Positions 1,243-57,249 of a DNA stretch of 64,000 nucleotides are shown here, piece by piece (position 1 is the stretch's first letter; each line of letters begins with the position of its first letter). Position numbers and translations under genes: made by a program. This DNA comes from Pirellulales bacterium (GTDB lineage Bacteria > Planctomycetota > Planctomycetia > Pirellulales > Thermoguttaceae). The DNA lies in NCBI GenBank assembly GCA_016928165.1, contig JAFGLH010000150.1, positions 1-64,000 of the forward strand, written 5' to 3'. The notes beneath the pieces were generated by a model. It had not been told where the DNA came from, ran no database searches, and saw only the letters and a program-made list of their open reading frames with translations.

Positions 1243-3567
1243 CTAGTTGAATTTGGCCTCCACCCTGGCCTTGCGCACCTTATCGACGAACTGATCGAAG
1301 TACTCTTTTGCTCCGATCCTCAACATTCGCAATACTTGGTCCTGGCGGGGCCTTGTTGTCGGCAGGGAGACGACAGACTCGGTTCGGTGCCACACGGCGG
1401 CCAGCTTTACCTTGGAAACGGGGCGACCCGCGCCGCCTGTTAGAACCACCGAAAACATGTCGGCGCTCTTGGATACTTTTATCTGAAGCAGCATCACCAT
1501 CTTGGTCGGGTCTTTCTCGTCGAAGTCCGCGTCGAGGCGATTGCTTGCGGGCAACTCCTCGACTTCGATGTCGAGTTCTTTGAGCGCGTCGAGCGCTTGA
1601 CGTTTGATGGTCAAGTTGATGGTGCTGTTAGGGTTCTGATTCGACTGAATCAGCAGGAACATTTTTTTAACGCCGGCGAGCAGTTCGTTGGGGCCTGGCT
1701 TGCGTTCGGCGGACGGTTTCGTCGGGTTCGGCCGCGGGTCTTCCGCTTTCGGCTGCGGCGCGCCCGGGGCCGCGGGCGACGGATCGGGAGCGGGTTCTTC
1801 CTGGGGGGGCGGTTCGGGCGCCGGCTCTTCGACGGGCCGAGGCGGCGTCTCGGCCGAGGGTTGGTCTTCGGGCGTTGGCAAATGCGTTTCGCTCGATTCC
1901 GCGTCGGACTCCAAAGGAGGCGAAAGAACGCCGGGAAGGGTCGTTGAAAGTTCAATCAACGGTTCCGAGTCGTCCAGGATCGAGATTTCGCCGGGAGTTT
2001 GTTCGCGTGGTGGTTCCGGGGGCGAAGAACGCAACAAGAGAACCAAAAGAATCAACAACGCGAAGACCCATATCAACGACGTCCAAAACCAGGGCGATTT
2101 CAAGACGGCTTTGATGCCGCCCGAGCGTTTGAATCTGGGCATGATCTGGTAGGGAAGGCGTCCTTCGTCGGGAGGGAGCGTCATCAGGGGATCGGACTGC
2201 GACGCGGCGACGGTGTCGGAGGGAAGCAGCTCCGCCAGCACGTCGGCGCGCAAGTTGGCCAGCGAAGGCTTGCTGTCGCCGTGAGGGTGCTTTTTAACGT
2301 GCGACGGCTTCTCTTTGGCGACGGACGGTTTAGCCTGTTCCGTCTTTTTGCCCTCGACGCCGTCGGAGTTCGGGGGCGTCGGTTCGTCCTCCAGCGCCGC
2401 CAATTCAAGCACCGAGGCCTCGGTTTCTTTTGTTCCGGGTTTCCTTGCGGTCTCTTGGTCCGAGGGTTGCTTGGACCGCATGGCGGCGGCCATCAGCGCG
2501 GAAATCCGCGAGTAATCGCCCCCCTCGGCCGACGCCTCCAGCCAGGCCTGGAGCTTATCGGCCACCTCGCGCGCCGTTTGGAAACGTCGGATCGGCTCCT
2601 TGGCCGTCATCCGCTCGATGAACTCGATCAACTCGTAGGGGACGTCGGGACGGAATTTGCCGACTGGCTCAGGTTGTTCCTTGCGGTGGGCCATGAGCAG
2701 TTCCACCAAAGTGGATTTGGGGAACGGGCGACGGCCGGTCAGGAGAAAGTAAAACGTGTGGCCGAGGCTGTAGATGTCCGCTCGGCCGTCTACATTGCGG
2801 CTGTCGGCCACCTGCTCCGGGGCGACGTAATCGGCCGTTCCCACCGCCGACGGCTCTCCTTCGGCGGTCTGCCACGGCCGTTCGCCTTCGAAGGTGACTC
2901 GCGCGAGTCCCAAGTCGAGAATTTTCAACACGCCGTTTGGATCGACCAGCAGGTTCGCCGGTTTAATGTCGCGATGAACAAAACCGGCTTGATGCGCGTG
3001 CGCCAGTCCGTCGGCGGCTTGGGCAATGAAGTCGGCGGCCTTGCGGTAGTCCAGCGGTCCTTGTTCTTCGACCAGCCGCCGAAGGTCCGGTCCATCGACG
3101 TACTCCATCACCAAATAATGGATTTCCTTGCCGTATCGAACGTCCCTGTTGAAATCGTATGCGCGGACGATGTGCGGATGGTCGAGCGCGGCGATGGCCC
3201 GCGCCTCGATGTGAAAGCGGGCCAACAGGTCGGGGTCCGATTGGTACTTGCTGGGCAAGACCTTGATGGCGCAACGGCGGCGCATCATTTCGTGTTCGGC
3301 CAGGAAAACCTTGCTCATCCCCCCCTGCCCCAAGGGTTTGAGGATGCGGTGAGGGCCGAGACGGAAGCCGCGATGTTTGCCCTTTAAGAGCATGTCGGCC
3401 TGCCAGCGGGTAAGAATTTCCCGCTTCACCAACTCGTCGGACAATCCACGAGCGCTTAACGGTTTGCCGCCGAACTCATCCTGTAGGGTCGGCATCAGGT
3501 CGTCTGGTACCAGACCACTCTGTCGGATGAGATCCAGGAATGAGTCGGCGGAATTATCTGGCGTCAT
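1243..3567 (-). CDS. PknB-type serine/threonine protein kinase, single TM, Pro-rich linker and extracytoplasmic tail
   Basis: Kinase motifs GQGGMSKVFLAEH, CAIKVLP, HRDIKPANLL, DLGLARV, GTADYVAPEQ; TM segment FWTSLIWVFALLILLVLLL. Confidence 0.92.
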   Translation of the reverse strand: MTPDNSADSFLDLIRQSGLVPDDLMPTLQDEFGGKPLSARGLSDELVKREILTRWQADMLLKGKHRGFRLGPHRILKPLGQGGMSKVFLAEHEMMRRRCAIKVLPSKYQSDPDLLARFHIEARAIAALDHPHIVRAYDFNRDVRYGKEIHYLVMEYVDGPDLRRLVEEQGPLDYRKAADFIAQAADGLAHAHQAGFVHRDIKPANLLVDPNGVLKILDLGLARVTFEGERPWQTAEGEPSAVGTADYVAPEQVADSRNVDGRADIYSLGHTFYFLLTGRRPFPKSTLVELLMAHRKEQPEPVGKFRPDVPYELIEFIERMTAKEPIRRFQTAREVADKLQAWLEASAEGGDYSRISALMAAAMRSKQPSDQETARKPGTKETEASVLELAALEDEPTPPNSDGVEGKKTEQAKPSVAKEKPSHVKKHPHGDSKPSLANLRADVLAELLPSDTVAASQSDPLMTLPPDEGRLPYQIMPRFKRSGGIKAVLKSPWFWTSLIWVFALLILLVLLLRSSPPEPPREQTPGEISILDDSEPLIELSTTLPGVLSPPLESDAESSETHLPTPEDQPSAETPPRPVEEPAPEPPPQEEPAPDPSPAAPGAPQPKAEDPRPNPTKPSAERKPGPNELLAGVKKMFLLIQSNQNPNSTINLTIKRQALDALKELDIEVEELPASNRLDADFDEKDPTKMVMLLQIKVSKSADMFSVVLTGGAGRPVSKVKLAAVWHRTESVVSLPTTRPRQDQVLRMLRIGAKEYFDQFVDKVRKARVEAKFN

Positions 3568-14087: not shown

Positions 14088-14163
14088 GTAGGTCAGGTAC
14101 CCCGTACCTGACAATTTATGGTGGTATCGTCTTTCAATGTCAGGTACGGGATACCTGACCTAC
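14088..14163. repeat. palindromic element family A, double hairpin
   Basis: GTAGGTCAGGTACCCCGTACCTGAC ... GTCAGGTACGGGATACCTGACCTAC. Confidence 0.9.
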
Positions 14164-27392: not shown

Positions 27393-27459
27393 GTTTAGCG
27401 GCCGTCGGCACGACGGCCCTTGTTCGCATCGCAAGTCGCCGTGCCGGCGGCTGCTAAAC
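27393..27459. repeat. palindromic element family E, double hairpin
   Basis: GTTTAGCGGCCGTCGGCACGACGGCC...GTCGCCGTGCCGGCGGCTGCTAAAC. Confidence 0.88.
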
Positions 27460-28221: not shown

Positions 28222-28287
28222 GTAGGTCAGGTACCCCGTACCTGACGCTGGTTGTGGCTGATGTCAGGTACGGGGTACCTGACCTAC
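28222..28287. repeat. palindromic element family A
   Basis: GTAGGTCAGGTACCCCGTACCTGAC ... GTCAGGTACGGGGTACCTGACCTAC. Confidence 0.9.
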
Positions 28288-34755: not shown

Positions 34756-37032
34756 TCAATACGCGCCGGCCATGCTGTCGGCGCCCCATTTGCTTTCGAA
34801 CTGGCGCCGATTTTGGCGGTATATGTCGGCGAAGGCCCCGTCGCCCAACAGTCGGAACGACGCGCCCTGCCAATGGTGCACGAAAGCGTCGCGGACGTTA
34901 TACAACTCGTATCCTTCTCGGCGGACGCGGTAGCAGTAGTCCGTATCCTCGAAGTAGCCGACGCCGAACCGTTCGTCCAGATCGCCCACTATTTCGAGGA
35001 TTTTTCGCGGAAACAACACGCAGAAGAAACCCAGCATTATCATCCGCATCGTCTCGCCGTCGTGTTGTCGGCAATAGGACGCGGCCCAGCGGTGCATTTG
35101 TTCGATGGTCGTGTATCCGACGGGCACTTTGGCCTTGTTGCCGACCATGTTGCTGACCGGCCCGACCATTCCCGCCTTGGGCGTGGTCCGCAGGCGGTGG
35201 ATCAACGTCGAGAGCCAACCGCGCGTAACCACGGTGTCGTTGTTCAACAGGCAGAGGAACTCTCCGCTAGCCGCTCGCAACCCTTGATTGTTGGCCGCCG
35301 CGAAGCCGCGGTTGTCCTCGTTGAAAATCACCCGCAGGTCGGGGCGCAGCGCCTCTTGCTCGGCCAACCATTGGGCCGTGCCGTCGCTCGACGCGTTGTC
35401 CACCACGATCACTTCGTAGTTCGGCCAATCGGTGCGATGAAAAATGCTTTCCAAACAACCCTGGTTCAAGTGCAGATTGTTGTAGGTGACGACAATGATC
35501 GACGCCTTGGGGAACAAATCGCGCAGTTCGCGGTCGAACGTTGCGGCGCGTTCCGCCCAGGTGTTGCCGGCGGCAAAGTCTTGACGCAGCCGACGCCGCT
35601 CGGGACCGTCCTCGCCCAACTCTCGTTCGATCTCCGCGGCGAAACCGCGGGCGTCGTCGGCCAGCGAGAGGAGCCGCCGGCGGGCCAGCGGCCTCAGCTC
35701 CGGCAAATCGACCGCCACAACCGGCTTGCCGGTGGCCAGCATCTCGTACGCCTTCACCGGATTGGTGGCCTCGGTCAGCGGGATCCGCTTAAAAGGAATG
35801 ATAAACGCGTCCCAATCGGCAACGAGCCGGGGAAGGTCGGCGTAGGGTTGTTCGCCCAGAAGCTTCACGTTAGGCAGCCGCTCTAGACGCGATACGTTTC
35901 CGGTGAAGGTGCTGCCGATCAACTCGAACCGCCAAGCGGGCCGCAACTCGGCCAGATCGGCCGCCAGGTCCGCGTCGAACCATTCGGCGATCGCGCCATA
36001 GAAGCCAACGGTGACGCCGGTGGCGGCGGGCCGTTTAGCGGCCGACGGTGCGTCGGCCTCCGATTTTCCCCGAGCCGCCGCGCCGACGGCTGCCAAACAA
36101 TGTGAAAAATGTTCGTAGTCGCACCCGTTGCGGATCAGCGCCGTGCGGCGCGCCCTCGGCCGGACCTTCGCCTCGAGTGCGTCGGACGTAACCACCGTCA
36201 AATCGGCCTCGGCAATGGTCCGCTCCTCGACGGACAGCATCTCCGGGCAATTCGTCGAGAACCCGGAATGGTCGTCCATGCAGTCGTAGACGATCGGCCA
36301 GCCGAACCGCCCGCGCAATTCCTCGGCAAGCGCGGTCCAGAAGGGCAACTGCACCACGATCACGGCGGAAGATATTCGCCATTGGCGGCGGAGTTGATCG
36401 ACGGCCGCCGCCATTCGCCGCACGTCGTCGCCGCGGGGAGATTGTCGATAGACGTTAGTCCCGGTCGTGCCGGGAAAGCCCATTTCGTAGACGTTCGACT
36501 CCCGTTTGGCGAGCAGCGCGGTTTTTCCGTCGTGGAAGCCGAAGGAAGCATAAAATACGCGGTGGCCGGCTGCCGCTTGCCGCCGGGCCATCTGTTGCGG
36601 CCGTTGAAAGCGGGAGTTCCATTGTATCACCGGCAAACAGATCACGTCGTAACCTTCGGAGGCGTCCACTTCGGGCCGCGGCGCGCCTGAATGCGCCGTC
36701 GAAACCGACGCGGACGACCCACCCCGGCCGCCGACCGCGACGCTTTTCAGGCGGCGAATCCGCCGCCAGACCCTCGCCGCCAGTGGATACAAACCGACCG
36801 GCCGCAACAGGGCCGCGGCGCAGGCCTTGCCGCGAGGAATGAACGACTCGACGAAAAATTTCCGGCTCCGCCCGCCGACGCCATGCACGCACCGCACCAG
36901 GCGCCAAGTCATTCGGGACGTAATCCAGTCCATCTGGGCGCGTACGGCGAGCAGTTCGGACTCCAAGGCGCGCACTCGTTTTTGCGAGTATTCCAAGCGG
37001 TCTTCCAAGGTGTAGCGACTCGAATCCATCAA
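34756..37032 (-). CDS. bifunctional glycosyltransferase (GT-B-like N-terminal, GT2 C-terminal)
   Basis: VICLPVIQWNSRFQRPQQMARR...; GT2 SIIVVTYNNLHLNQGCLESIFHRTDWPNYEVIVVDNASSDGTAQWL. Confidence 0.87.
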   Translation of the reverse strand: MMDSSRYTLEDRLEYSQKRVRALESELLAVRAQMDWITSRMTWRLVRCVHGVGGRSRKFFVESFIPRGKACAAALLRPVGLYPLAARVWRRIRRLKSVAVGGRGGSSASVSTAHSGAPRPEVDASEGYDVICLPVIQWNSRFQRPQQMARRQAAAGHRVFYASFGFHDGKTALLAKRESNVYEMGFPGTTGTNVYRQSPRGDDVRRMAAAVDQLRRQWRISSAVIVVQLPFWTALAEELRGRFGWPIVYDCMDDHSGFSTNCPEMLSVEERTIAEADLTVVTSDALEAKVRPRARRTALIRNGCDYEHFSHCLAAVGAAARGKSEADAPSAAKRPAATGVTVGFYGAIAEWFDADLAADLAELRPAWRFELIGSTFTGNVSRLERLPNVKLLGEQPYADLPRLVADWDAFIIPFKRIPLTEATNPVKAYEMLATGKPVVAVDLPELRPLARRRLLSLADDARGFAAEIERELGEDGPERRRLRQDFAAGNTWAERAATFDRELRDLFPKASIIVVTYNNLHLNQGCLESIFHRTDWPNYEVIVVDNASSDGTAQWLAEQEALRPDLRVIFNEDNRGFAAANNQGLRAASGEFLCLLNNDTVVTRGWLSTLIHRLRTTPKAGMVGPVSNMVGNKAKVPVGYTTIEQMHRWAASYCRQHDGETMRMIMLGFFCVLFPRKILEIVGDLDERFGVGYFEDTDYCYRVRREGYELYNVRDAFVHHWQGASFRLLGDGAFADIYRQNRRQFESKWGADSMAGAY
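36033..36098. repeat. palindromic element family E inside glycosyltransferase CDS
   Basis: GTTTAGCGGCCGACGGTGCGTCGGCC...CCGCCGCGCCGACGGCTGCCAAAC; same arms as 27393, different spacer. Confidence 0.85.
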
Positions 37033-37048: not shown

Positions 37049-39958
37049 TCAGGCGGACTGCAACCGTTCTTTCGCGTCGAGGGCCTCCAGCCGGTCGATA
37101 ATCTGTTGCAACCGCGCCTCCCAGGTATTTTTCCGGGCCGCCTCGTCGACCGCCCGGCGATACGAATCGGTCGCGCCGCGGCGGGCGGCCTCTTCGATCG
37201 CAGCCACGTACTCTTCCGCGTTCCCGGCCACCATCACGCAACTTTGCGCGCGGCATTCCGGCATGTCGGTGGTGACGATCGGCTTCGTCGCCGCCATGTA
37301 TTCGAAGAGCTTCACCGGCGAGGTAGACCTGGTGATGTCGTTTATCAAGAAGGGGATCGTGGCCACGGAAAAATGGTGCAGATAGGCCGGCAACTCATCG
37401 TACTTCTTTTCGCCCAGCCAACGGACGTTGGGCAAACCGACGAGATTGTGGGCCGCCAGCGAGTGGTCGAAGTCCGGACCGATCAGCAAAAACGTCCATT
37501 CTTTCCGCAGCGATGCGGCGCGGGCCACCAACTCGTAATCGAACCAGTGGGCCAATGCCCCATAGTAACCGACGATCGTTCGTCCGGCGGCGACTAGATC
37601 GGCGACGTCGTCCGGCGGCGGAGGCGGCGACGCCAAATGAAAATGATCGTAGTCCACGCCATTCGGGCAGTAGAGCGCGTCGGGGCGTTGCCGCTTGACT
37701 TCGTCGTGCAGACGCCGCGCCGTGGCCAGCACCACCCTCGATGTGGAGACCAGCCTTCTGTGCCTGCTCTGCTTGTATTCCTGCGACGCCCAACTCTCCG
37801 CCACGCCCAGATCGTCGAGGTAATCGTAGATCACCGCCGGGCGGGAGAAATTCTTCACCTGCTCCCACCCGGACCATCCGGTCAGCAGCAAGCAATTGGG
37901 CAAAGTATAGAGCGGCTTCGGATCGTCGCACAGATACAATCGCTCGGCCACGCGAACGAATCCGCGGAAGCTGTCGGTTTGGCGTTGGGGCGAACAAAAC
38001 AACGACAAGTAGCCGGCCTTGGCGAATTGGGCCATCAGTTGGTGCGGCCGCTGCCGCATCCAGCCCCAGTCGATAAACGGCGGATAGACGACAATGCCCC
38101 GACATTGTCCGACTTCGCGCAGTATTTGCTCCAAGCCCAAGCCCGAATGTGCGGCGGGGCCGTTGCGGAGACGGCGAATTTTTTCCGCGGCCGCCCGGGC
38201 GTAGCGATTGCGGACGGTGCCCTCCGGGGCCATCCGGCGGACAATCCGCAGCAAGCGGCGGCGAACGGCCATCCGCAACCGCGCCGACGACCAAATTCGT
38301 TTCGGCGGCAAGCGTCCGTCTCTCTCGACGGGCGCCGCTTTTATGCGGGAAAGCTCGTCGTTCAGCCGGGCGATCTCAGCTGCGCTTTGCCGCAATTCCC
38401 GTTGCAGCGAGTCGGTCGTTTCCCCGCCGGCGGCGATGAGCTTGTCTTTTTCCAGCAACGCCGATTCATAGTATTGGCGGCGGTGCTCGACGGCGACCGT
38501 CGCGGCCAGCGAGTCGGCCAGGGAGGCGGTAAGTTGATCGATGGTGAAGTCGCTCGAGTCGGTCGAAGCGTCCCAACAAGAAGGCACGGCGGGGACGTTT
38601 CCCTTGCAACCCAGCGCCGCCACCAGGTAAGCGCGTTGCTTTTCCGGCACGACGAACGAATGATGCACGGCCATGATTTCGTCGCGCAACCGATCGTCCA
38701 GTCCGCTCAGGTCGCGGATGAAAAAGTCGCTCCAGGTGATCCCGCCGAACCAATGGCCGAGAAACCGCAAGCCGGCGGCCTCGAAGGCGGCGGACATGTC
38801 GGACATCGGCATCTCCTTGCCGAACGGCCAGTTGCCGCCGGCCGAACGCTGCATGCGCCACAGCCAATACCAGTAACACATTCGATTCGGCACCATCGCC
38901 ATGACGTATTTTGTGCTCCGGCTGGCCATGCCCCGCAAGAACGCCACCTGCTGATCGAAGGTGTAGTGTTCCAGGACGCCGGCGTTGTAGACGAGATCGT
39001 ACTCCGCCTCGCCGATCGAAAACACGTCGCCTTCGACGAACTCGGCCCGCTGTTGATGTTGCGCGAAAATGCGTTCGGCGTAGCGCAGCGCTTCGGCGGA
39101 AAAGTCCATCAGCGAGAGCCGCAACCGCTCGTTTTTCGCCAACACGAGGCTTTGCCACCCCGCCCCGCAGCCGGCTTCCAACACCTTGCCGCCGCGCGGC
39201 AGCAGTTCGCCGATCCGCTGGGCCAGATCGTGGCCGATGTCTTGCATCGCGTCGTCGATCTCCAGCATCGGCAGCGTGGCGTAGTAATCGTTCCACTTCC
39301 GCCGCTCGCGGATTTGAAGGTCGCGTTTCCTCCGCTCGCGGAAGTACGTCGCCGAAGCGTAGACGACCATAATCCACTTGTCCCGCCGGCCCTGAAAATC
39401 GCCATCGACGACCTTAACGGCGACGCGGGTGAATCCGTCCAACCGCTCGGGAAAACATTCCTCGCGAAACTGTGAAAGATGGCCCGGCCGCAACGGCGCC
39501 TCGCGATACGGCGCCAGCGCCGCGTAAAAGTCGCGGCAACGCCGAAAATGTCCGCGCATCACCTCCAGCGGATCGGTGAAACGCTCCAAACAACAGACGG
39601 CGACTATTGCATCGTAACGGTCGTCCGGCGTTCCTTCCGGGGCATGATGAAACTCGTGCCGCGGAAAGCGACGGCGGGCTTCCGCCGCCGCGCGCTCGTC
39701 GAGTTCCAAACCCGACACGCGGCAAGCGGGAAACTGCCCAGCCAACACGTCGACTCCGTCGCCGCCGGCACAGCCCCAGTCGAGAAGCGAGATTTTTTCA
39801 GAGGCGAGATAGTCGCGCTCGGCCGCCGGCAGGTTTTCAACCAGCCGCTGCATGAAGTATCTTTTTCGGCCGCGTTCGTTTTCGCCGCCCGATTGATTTT
39901 CCAAATCGTCGTCCCAACCGCGGTGGGAGTCGGCCGTCAGTTTGACTGTCTTGTCCAT
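37049..39958 (-). CDS. fusion of two SAM methyltransferase domains and a glycosyltransferase
   Basis: LLDWGCAGGDGVDVLAGQFP; KVLEAGCGAGWQSLVLAKNERLRLSLMDFSAEAL; GIVVYPPFIDWGWMRQRPHQLMAQFAKAGY...PNGVDYDHF...IVGYYGALAHWFDYELV. Confidence 0.85.
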   Translation of the reverse strand: MDKTVKLTADSHRGWDDDLENQSGGENERGRKRYFMQRLVENLPAAERDYLASEKISLLDWGCAGGDGVDVLAGQFPACRVSGLELDERAAAEARRRFPRHEFHHAPEGTPDDRYDAIVAVCCLERFTDPLEVMRGHFRRCRDFYAALAPYREAPLRPGHLSQFREECFPERLDGFTRVAVKVVDGDFQGRRDKWIMVVYASATYFRERRKRDLQIRERRKWNDYYATLPMLEIDDAMQDIGHDLAQRIGELLPRGGKVLEAGCGAGWQSLVLAKNERLRLSLMDFSAEALRYAERIFAQHQQRAEFVEGDVFSIGEAEYDLVYNAGVLEHYTFDQQVAFLRGMASRSTKYVMAMVPNRMCYWYWLWRMQRSAGGNWPFGKEMPMSDMSAAFEAAGLRFLGHWFGGITWSDFFIRDLSGLDDRLRDEIMAVHHSFVVPEKQRAYLVAALGCKGNVPAVPSCWDASTDSSDFTIDQLTASLADSLAATVAVEHRRQYYESALLEKDKLIAAGGETTDSLQRELRQSAAEIARLNDELSRIKAAPVERDGRLPPKRIWSSARLRMAVRRRLLRIVRRMAPEGTVRNRYARAAAEKIRRLRNGPAAHSGLGLEQILREVGQCRGIVVYPPFIDWGWMRQRPHQLMAQFAKAGYLSLFCSPQRQTDSFRGFVRVAERLYLCDDPKPLYTLPNCLLLTGWSGWEQVKNFSRPAVIYDYLDDLGVAESWASQEYKQSRHRRLVSTSRVVLATARRLHDEVKRQRPDALYCPNGVDYDHFHLASPPPPPDDVADLVAAGRTIVGYYGALAHWFDYELVARAASLRKEWTFLLIGPDFDHSLAAHNLVGLPNVRWLGEKKYDELPAYLHHFSVATIPFLINDITRSTSPVKLFEYMAATKPIVTTDMPECRAQSCVMVAGNAEEYVAAIEEAARRGATDSYRRAVDEAARKNTWEARLQQIIDRLEALDAKERLQSA

Positions 39959-52131: not shown

Positions 52132-52677
52132 ATGTCGGCCGATATACTTCCAGTCTCCGACGGCGATGCGAAACACAACGAGTTCACTCGTTTGTTCACG
52201 GTAAACCAGCGGGCAATTTATCTCTATATCCGCTCGCTGGTGGCCAACGGCGCCGACGTGGACGAACTGTGGCAGGAAACGAACCTCGTGCTCTGGCAGC
52301 GGTTCGCCGATTACCGGCCGGGCACGAACTTCTTGGCTTGGGCGCGACGGATTGCCTACAACAAGGTCCTCAACTACCGCACGCGCCGCCGTCCGCCGCT
52401 CCAGTTCAGCGACGACTTCTTCCAGAAGCTGGCCGCTTCGGACCGCGTCTTCGATCAGCACTTGCCCTGGCTGGACGCCCTGAAACGCTGCGCCGAGAAA
52501 CTAACTCCGACCGATCGAGAACTGATCGAGCTTCGTTACAGCCCAAACGCCGACTGTAACATGGTGGCGAAAGCGCTCCGGCGGCCGATCCGGTCCGTTT
52601 ATAAGGCCGTCGGACGAATTCGGTCCTTATTGCTGGAGTGCATTCGGCGGGAAATCGCCAAGGAGGACCGCAAGTGA
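52132..52677 (+). CDS. ECF-type RNA polymerase sigma factor (planctomycete family)
   Basis: HNEFTRLFTVNQRAIYLYIRSLVANGADVDELWQETNLVLWQRFADYRPGTNFLAWARRIAYNKVLNYR; region 4 LTPTDRELIELRYSPNADCNMVAKALRRPIRSVYKAVGRIR. Confidence 0.92.
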   Translation: MSADILPVSDGDAKHNEFTRLFTVNQRAIYLYIRSLVANGADVDELWQETNLVLWQRFADYRPGTNFLAWARRIAYNKVLNYRTRRRPPLQFSDDFFQKLAASDRVFDQHLPWLDALKRCAEKLTPTDRELIELRYSPNADCNMVAKALRRPIRSVYKAVGRIRSLLLECIRREIAKEDRK

Positions 52678-54512
52678 CCGACCAGCGCGATCAATACCGC
52701 GATTTGGACGCCTTGCTGGCCGCCGTTTGTGACCGGACGGCTTCGCGGGAAAATATCCGGAGGATCGAGGCGCTGGCCGATCGGGCCGAAGGGCTTGACC
52801 ACGTTCTCGATTACCTGCAACTCGACGGACTGCTGCGCTGGGAGTTCGGCCTGGGCGCGGAAGAAACGGAAATGGGGGCCGAAGGACAAGCTCCCGGCAT
52901 GTCGGCACATTCGCCTTCTCTTCCGATTATCGTCCAGGCGTCCCCGGCGACGCAGACGCCGTGGTTCAGTCTCCAATCGCCGCTGGCCGCCGGAGCGTTC
53001 TCGTATGCGGTCGCCATTTTAATCGTATGCCTGATGTTGCTTGGGGCCTGGAAATACAAAATCAAGCATGATTATCGTGATTTCGCTCAAGACGATAGCC
53101 GCAGATCAACGACTTCCGGCGCATTGGAGCAACCGCAATTAGTCTTCGTCGGCCGCGTCATCGGCATGAAGGACTGCCGCTGGTCCGACCCCAACACCCG
53201 CACATACATCGGCGCGTCGGCGCCGCTGGGCCGCGAATACGCCCTGGCCTCCGGCCTGATGGAGGTTGCCTATAGCGGCGGCGCGAGAGTGATTCTCGAA
53301 GGCCCCTGTTCGTATAAGGTGGAATCCACCGCTGGCGGCTTTTTAGAGCGGGGCAAGCTGACGGCTAATATCAAAACTCAAAGCTCAAAGCCCAAAGCTC
53401 AAAGCTCCGAACACTCTCCCCTCTCCCCTCTCAACTTCCCACTTTTCTCCGTCCGCACTCCTACCGCGATCGTCACCGATCTGGGCACCGAGTTCGGCGT
53501 CGAGGTGGCCGAAAACGGCGAGACCGCCTCGCACGTCTTTCAAGGATCGGTGCAAGTGAAAATTCTCTCCTCTCCCGCAAGCGGGAGAGGGGCCGGGGGT
53601 GAGGGCGGCCTGGTCCTACTTGCCGCCGGCGAGTCGATCATCGTGAGTAGGGTGCGTGCCGGCACGCACCATGACTCCGCGACGGGTGGCGCCGGCTCAG
53701 CCAGTGGCACACTGCGTTTCACGCAACCCGCAACTCCGCCCGAGTTCGTCCGACAAATCCCGCAACCGCCGACGGCATCTTATGGGTCCATGCCGATCAT
53801 GGACTCGGCGGATTTCGCCTGGAAATATGAAATGGACGTCGATCCGACCGCGCAAGATTTGGACGCTAATCCCGGTCCCGACTGGAGACTGCACCGTGGA
53901 GTCGTGCAAGTCGGCGGCGACGGGATCGTGACGTTGGCGTATTTGGACGATCATTCCGGTTGCTTGATCAGCGCCGGACCCGGCGATTCAGAACACTCGC
54001 CAAGCCACGTCTGGAACAACGTCGGCGACGACACCGGTTACACGGTCGAACTGCGCGTCAAGGCCGGCGGAACGACTGATTGGCATGGATATACCCTGGG
54101 GCTGTACTTCACGGCCGTCGATTCCACGACCGATAAATCCTCGGTGGCGGTCATCGCCAATGAATGTACGTTGTGGGACCACACGTCGAAATATCTCGTC
54201 GACAACAACCGCAACGACGATGATTTCCACGTCTTCCGCGTTGCCCAGGAACCGAACGGCGGAAAATATCTCGTGTGGCGCGACGGCGTTTTGATTCGGC
54301 TTTCGGAAGGCTTTCAAACAACAAATTGGAACCGAGTCCAATTCGGCGACATGGGCGCCCGCGGCGGTCCGAACGTGGTCGATTACGTCCGCATCACCAC
54401 CGGCGCGTACGCGCCGCCGAAGCGGACAACGCCTATTCCTTCTTCCACGGAGTTTGAAAAAATGAAAGGAGGTACTTATCGGGGGAAAGCTGAAAGTGGG
54501 CGCTCGTCATGA
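52674..54512 (+). CDS. FecR-like / LamG-like anti-sigma-type membrane protein
   Basis: GTG start overlapping the sigma stop; TM; FecR core LFSVRTPTAIVTDLGTEFGVEVAENGETASHVFQGSVQVKI; LamG-like C-terminal domain. Confidence 0.85.
   Translation: MTDQRDQYRDLDALLAAVCDRTASRENIRRIEALADRAEGLDHVLDYLQLDGLLRWEFGLGAEETEMGAEGQAPGMSAHSPSLPIIVQASPATQTPWFSLQSPLAAGAFSYAVAILIVCLMLLGAWKYKIKHDYRDFAQDDSRRSTTSGALEQPQLVFVGRVIGMKDCRWSDPNTRTYIGASAPLGREYALASGLMEVAYSGGARVILEGPCSYKVESTAGGFLERGKLTANIKTQSSKPKAQSSEHSPLSPLNFPLFSVRTPTAIVTDLGTEFGVEVAENGETASHVFQGSVQVKILSSPASGRGAGGEGGLVLLAAGESIIVSRVRAGTHHDSATGGAGSASGTLRFTQPATPPEFVRQIPQPPTASYGSMPIMDSADFAWKYEMDVDPTAQDLDANPGPDWRLHRGVVQVGGDGIVTLAYLDDHSGCLISAGPGDSEHSPSHVWNNVGDDTGYTVELRVKAGGTTDWHGYTLGLYFTAVDSTTDKSSVAVIANECTLWDHTSKYLVDNNRNDDDFHVFRVAQEPNGGKYLVWRDGVLIRLSEGFQTTNWNRVQFGDMGARGGPNVVDYVRITTGAYAPPKRTTPIPSSTEFEKMKGGTYRGKAESGRSS
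53372..53450. repeat. short tandem/low-complexity tract inside FecR-like CDS
   Basis: CAAAACTCAAAGCTCAAAGCCCAAAGCTCAAAGCTC followed by CTCTCCCCTCTCCCCTCTC. Confidence 0.8.
53569..53605. repeat. palindromic element family C inside FecR-like CDS
   Basis: CCTCTCCCGC-AA-GCGGGAGAGG then GGCCGGGGGTGAGGG. Confidence 0.8.
53651..53670. repeat. palindromic element family B inside FecR-like CDS
   Basis: GGTGCGTGCCGGCACGCACC, perfect 20-bp palindrome. Confidence 0.85.
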
Positions 54513-56749: not shown

Positions 56750-57172
56750 ATGACAGCTCGGGCGCAGATTGTATGTTTGACTCTACTCCTGCTCATCCCA
56801 GTCGGTTGCGGTTATCGCAGCAGCCTCGACCGAAAGGTGATCTCCGGCACGATAACCATTGGCGGCGAGAAGGCGCCGCGGGGATTCGTGCGATTCGTTC
56901 CGATCGAGGGCACTCAAGGTCCGGCCACCTCGGCCCGCATTTCCGACGGCGAATATCGCGCGACCAACCGCGGCGGCGTCCCCTTCGGCAAGCATCGCGT
57001 CGAGATCGCCGCCCAACGCCCGACCGGCGAGATGATCGACCTGGGCGGCGGCCAATTTACCGAAAAATTGGAGCAGATCGGCGACAAGAAGTACGCCGGC
57101 AAGGACTCGCCGCTCAGAGTTGAAGTCAACGCCGACAGTAAAGATCGAATGGACTTCGAGATTACCGAGTAG
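56750..57172 (+). CDS. small lipoprotein, carboxypeptidase-regulatory-like fold
   Basis: MTARAQIVCLTLLLLIPVGCGY lipobox; KVISGTITIGGEKAPRGFVRFVPIEG. Confidence 0.75.
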   Translation: MTARAQIVCLTLLLLIPVGCGYRSSLDRKVISGTITIGGEKAPRGFVRFVPIEGTQGPATSARISDGEYRATNRGGVPFGKHRVEIAAQRPTGEMIDLGGGQFTEKLEQIGDKKYAGKDSPLRVEVNADSKDRMDFEITE

Positions 57173-57249
57173 GTCAGGTACCCCGTACCTGACAATTTCT
57201 TCCAATCCGTTCTCGGGCGATCGTGTCAGGTACGGCGTACCTGACCTAC
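57169..57249. repeat. palindromic element family A overlapping a stop codon
   Basis: GTAGGTCAGGTACCCCGTACCTGAC ... GTCAGGTACGGCGTACCTGACCTAC; contains TAG stop 57170-57172. Confidence 0.9.

Follow-up and report, generated by a model that had tools for sequence, protein, structure and literature searches.

How does a short palindromic repeat come to be read as part of an enzyme? The question is raised by a glycosyltransferase (GT) gene at 34756-37029 on the minus strand of the window, the 64,000-nucleotide stretch of Pirellulales DNA that was analysed here. The original prediction placed a repeat, element E, within this gene, and E is indeed found at 36033-36098 (plus strand) as a unit of 66 bp lying in frame in the minus-strand ORF. 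Most descriptions of protein-coding palindromes concern the reduced intracellular bacteria Rickettsia and Wolbachia, and a clear planctomycete case would show that such elements do not depend on that lifestyle. We consider it very probable that E is a mobile repeat which spreads with an enzyme supplied in trans and survives in frame in tolerant loops, here the linker of a GT-B enzyme.

The consensus of E consists of GTTTAGC, two hairpins with some 15 bases of variable spacer between them, and GCTAAAC. The two ends are terminal inverted repeats, forming an outer stem that is 88-95% paired. In the copy at 36033-36098 the right end is GCCAAAC where most copies have GCTAAAC. Between its ends lie hairpin 1 (36040-36058, plus strand, GGCCGACGGTGCGTCGGCC), for which covariation is found in the original set as well as in held-out copies, a spacer that differs among copies (36059-36072, plus strand), and hairpin 2 (36073-36091, plus strand, AGCCGCCGCGCCGACGGCT), one pair of which is broken in this copy by a C-A combination. 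A covariance model made from 18 copies scores the element at 74.5 and 65.9 bits on the two strands (E-values of about 1e-15 and 1e-13 in the window); searching Rfam with E returned no match. The second copy in the window (27393-27459, plus strand, 67 bp) is intergenic, and both of its flanking genes are on the minus strand. Solo 33-bp perfect palindromes of the form GTTTAGCGGCCGTCG-GCA/TGC-CGACGGCCGCTAAAC also occur in the window's genome (C205:143-175 and C225:6545-6577); these are the single-hairpin form of E, of which few exist.

E could fold as two hairpins or as one long hairpin. Across the 18 copies, 16 cells of the two-hairpin pairing were changed on both sides (0/500 shuffles), compared with just 2 cells of the long-hairpin pairing. 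A second set of 27 copies, mostly outside the covariance model (the exception, L048:3584-3649, is the same place as model row L022), gave 25 cells for two hairpins (0/500 shuffles) and 11 for the long hairpin (24/500 shuffles). With fewer supporting pair changes in both sets, the single long hairpin was rejected. The pattern supports a fold of two separate hairpins whose pairing is kept via alternate pair types, although it falls short of proving selection on that fold, as arm-to-arm palindrome correction or subfamilies could mimic it. Folded alone as DNA, the 36033-36098 copy is unexceptional against shuffles (z = -1.3), and the case for E therefore rests on the repeat family.

That family is well represented in the window's own genome. 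With E as query, blastn found 31 hits, while the covariance model gave 130 rows at E<=0.01 (both strands counted) and about 55 places at or above 38 bits in 3.6 Mb. E is strongly biased to intergenic DNA: among 53 copies classified with a simple codon-score caller rather than a standard gene finder, run on genome stretches, 47 are intergenic and 6 lie in genes, even though coding sequence makes up 88% of the DNA examined. Under a strict threshold E is present in 12 of the 119 genomes of its family, and it is absent from all genomes of other families of the order among 60 relatives. In two congeneric genomes, G001 and G002, 31 of the 39 sampled copies are exactly 66 bp; the arms are 96% alike (31 copies), the spacer consensus is recognisable, and some copies have flanking inverted sequence. 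This near-identity suggests a recent spread, in a sample that leans to young copies, being composed mostly of the best-scoring ones with a few at the same place in both genomes. We take E to be a REP/MITE-like, non-autonomous palindromic repeat of a small group of Pirellulales-type planctomycetes.

The host gene encodes a GT-B glycosyltransferase fused to a family-2 glycosyltransferase, with Pfam matches of GT-B type at residues 146-303 and 356-470 and of family 2 at 511-626. With numbering from 37032, E encodes approximately residues 312-334; these fall between the GT-B matches, where the minus-strand translation is NGCDYEHF-SHCLAAVGAAARGKSEADAPSAAKRPAATGV-TVGFYGAIAEWF. The peptide had been described beforehand with its sequence right apart from two omissions, an S ahead of HCL and TGV ahead of TVG. 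The observation that a paralogous domain in the neighbouring gene (37049-39958, minus strand) has no insert at the same place holds as well, its sequence there being PNGVDYDHF-HLASPPPPPDDVADLVAAGRT-IVGYYGALAHWF. E presumably adds a translated, flexible, alanine-rich peptide of about 22 residues between the GT-B domains. Structure prediction had been proposed as a check on the loop, and in an AlphaFold2 model of the GT (12 homologues, mean pLDDT 89) the sole segment below 50, residues 191-210, overlaps the element-encoded residues 187-209. The model supports a disordered inter-domain loop, with the qualification that low pLDDT is also expected where no relatives align. A fold search with the model found GT-B enzymes as nearest, MshA at the top; a PDB sequence search with the GT alignment gave nothing at E<=1e-5.

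Comparison of linkers across homologues shows where the insert is present and where it is not. The GT linker has 31 aa in the window's gene, 12 aa in orthologues from Actinomycetes, Holophagae, Verrucomicrobia and Acidobacteria records, and 15 aa in several proteobacterial homologues; in G068, a genome of the same family, two homologues have 22-24 aa and no E match. The element-free versions sought by aligning orthologues are therefore at hand, in four distant groups and within the family. Linkers of homologues vary in length (12 to about 40 aa) and composition, as they might if the peptide were a native linker resembling the repeat through convergence of alanine-rich, GC-rich codons, and half of E is common to the neighbouring genus. 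Such convergence would nevertheless have to produce a match over the full 66 bp of the family, at 74.5 bits and with conserved ends, to a sequence that intergenic copies carry too and that distant orthologues lack at the peptide level, and we regard it as scarcely credible.

The half-element has its own history. G001, G002 and G031, the last from the neighbouring genus, keep one E arm in the GT (23-24 of 26 bases), and beside it lies an unrelated CTCTCCC...GGGAGAGG palindrome that encodes SPLPKGEG or a longer peptide. Since half of E is common to the neighbouring genus, the GT insertion must be old, and a retained half next to an unrelated palindromic repeat indicates that the loop took in repeats more than once. 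A complete E may have lost an arm to the second repeat, or a solo arm may have been there first. The original prediction had held that the same peptide in distant genera would mark it as native; distant orthologues are free of it, but with half of E reaching the neighbouring genus the comparison is not one of a simple empty and filled pair. No exact empty site for E was found among the orthologues compared. Minus the exact 66 bp, the linker would be 9 aa, below every orthologue seen, and so the native linker was probably partly lost or replaced. The GT orthologue of G002 (L084, about 3090-3210) has a different in-frame insert in its GT2 domain, EKGDSPHLCEAPEGPFRQMGTVPFF, absent from the window's genome and from G001.

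The GT is one of six host genes in the window's genome, together with a DEAD helicase, a TreZ-like amylase, a kinase-like gene, a BatA/vWA gene and one ORF without a Pfam match; the congeners add an MmeI-like gene (both G001 and G002) and a histidine kinase (G002). In all eight there is no stop across the element, and the peptide is shared. With seven other genes showing the same in-frame event, and the same-place paralogue lacking E, the proposal of an insert in a permissive loop is borne out. On either strand just one frame of the 66-bp consensus is open, and it encodes LAAAGTAA...VPAAAK in both cases; the use of the same frame in all coding copies is not independent evidence, because the other frames have stops and an open ORF was required. 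At the E site of the helicase, LLHxx runs straight into FDF in 11 of 17 orthologues; of the other six, five carry a short linker and one a long insert, all unrelated. The TreZ-like insert is common to the window's genome, G001 and G002, its spacer peptide is similar in all three, and it was probably inherited by these congeneric species. In the BatA-like gene of G002 (L143, 1256-1327) one end of the peptide derived from E is partly duplicated, RLAAAGADVPSAAKHQTDVPSAAKQ. In the histidine kinase of G002 (L174), E lies within the HATPase_c domain, and another repeat-like peptide, KKGTGPICAQHPPGRSGKLDLSPF, is found in the same protein.

E might instead function chiefly as a signal in RNA or DNA, acting in mRNA stability, RNase processing or as a supercoiling site, with the genic copies a side effect. 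The maintenance of hairpins through alternate pairs and the intergenic bias would suit such a role, as would two orientation biases, both spotted post hoc: relative to transcription E has the same orientation in all eight coding copies (p = 0.008), an orientation that tandem intergenic copies also favour (28 vs 15, p = 0.066). The intergenic context in the window's genome (28 tandem, 12 divergent, 2 convergent) is, however, not that of terminators, Rfam offers no match, the distribution within the family (12/119 genomes) is patchy, and arm correction or subfamilies could yield the covariation too. A primarily regulatory role is in our judgement rather unlikely.

Even as a mobile repeat, E may have been domesticated in the GT, the longer linker altering how the two GT domains are spaced or move and being kept by selection. 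The inheritance of the TreZ-like insert in three congeneric species with a similar spacer, and the persistence of half of E in the GT of G001, G002 and G031, do indicate that such peptides can last, yet persistence by itself is no sign of selection, the content of the GT loop varies by species to the point of including an unrelated repeat, and the loop is disordered in the model. Domestication thus appears improbable, and the insert most likely just lengthens the linker, in a passive and nearly neutral way. A broader reading, in which the same loops are remodelled again and again by the in-frame entry of several unrelated palindromic families, with E entering in one orientation, is possible but doubtful; the families concerned are E and the CTCTCCC...GGGAGAGG palindrome at the GT linker and the third repeat in the GT2 domain of G002. 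If true, entry in one orientation would suggest that insertion follows a route linked to transcription or strand.

To return to E as a mobile repeat, its dispersal and palindromic ends point to a spread by transposition, with the enzyme supplied in trans. The 66-bp length and the single open frame per strand would then permit read-through whenever E inserts in phase within a loop that tolerates it, which may be why it survives in genes. The search for a mobiliser turned to Y1_Tnp genes, which occur in the genomes examined. A scan of 30 Y1_Tnp (RAYT-type) loci yielded no strong copy of E, the best match scoring 27.9 bits, and a local RAYT was set aside as the mobiliser, a distant one acting in trans still being compatible. 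The Y1_Tnp gene on C242 of the window's genome (L105, 1595-2700) has other hairpins to its left and right (CCCAGGGC...GCCCTGGG and GGCCCAACGGGCC), and the locus resembles a REP-transposase unit. An autonomous copy of E was sought between nearby E pairs on C222 and C56, where the intervening genes proved ordinary. By eye, no consistent target-site duplication was seen in the flanks of E.

Among known systems, the closest in behaviour are the Rickettsia RPE and the Wolbachia protein-coding palindromes. RPE of 105-146 bp are fused in frame in Rickettsia genes, including a translated, active guanylate kinase (reviewed in PMC2229807). Like E, the elements of both genera are short dispersed palindromes found in intergenic DNA and in frame in many protein genes, with a tolerated peptide, conserved enzymes among the hosts and a mobiliser that is not known (PMC2229807). 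E shares the functional traits of an RPE, being a dispersed palindrome, in frame in eight unrelated genes with orthologues that lack the insert. It is not an RPE proper, which is a single long stem-loop of 105-146 bp from Rickettsia, whereas E has 66 bp, is G+C-rich, forms two hairpins and belongs to Planctomycetota. We liken E to these elements by function, as appearing to work in the same way, and claim no sequence relationship. MITEs such as Correia/NEMIS, ERIC and RUP are also short and non-autonomous with inverted ends, and some have open frames that fuse to genes (PMC2229807), but E is shorter than most, and neither a target-site duplication nor a parent transposon was seen for it at the loci inspected. 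No report of protein-coding palindromes in Planctomycetota was found in the open-licence papers searched, which is weak evidence of novelty, and nothing was found on a MITE in Pirellulales or on the LPLGEGPGVR peptide. The E insertions, being variously shared, absent and half-replaced, offer a comparable set for testing how mobile DNA turns into protein sequence.

REP elements and BIMEs resemble E as small dispersed hairpins, mostly intergenic, in inverted pairs and with some in genes, and REP elements tagged with GTAG/CGTC have been reported from Planctomycetes among other phyla (PMC3733652). E differs in its ends, GTTTAGC/GCTAAAC in nearly all copies and without a GTAG or CGTC tag, in its nearly fixed two-hairpin length, and in not being found beside the scanned Y1_Tnp genes; a RAYT flanked by the same repeat is a mark of the tagged REP elements. 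The window does hold three copies of a GTAG-starting palindrome, GTAGGTCAGGTACCCCGTACCTGAC, similar to a GTAG-tagged REP (14088-14117, 28222-28251 and 57169-57198). Another palindromic repeat, of the CTCTCCCGCAAGCGGGAGAGG type, is found at 53561-53610 in frame in ORF 52638-54512 (...VKILSSPASGRGAGGEGGLVLLAAGES...), the product of which has a weak FecR match, under the Pfam cut-off.
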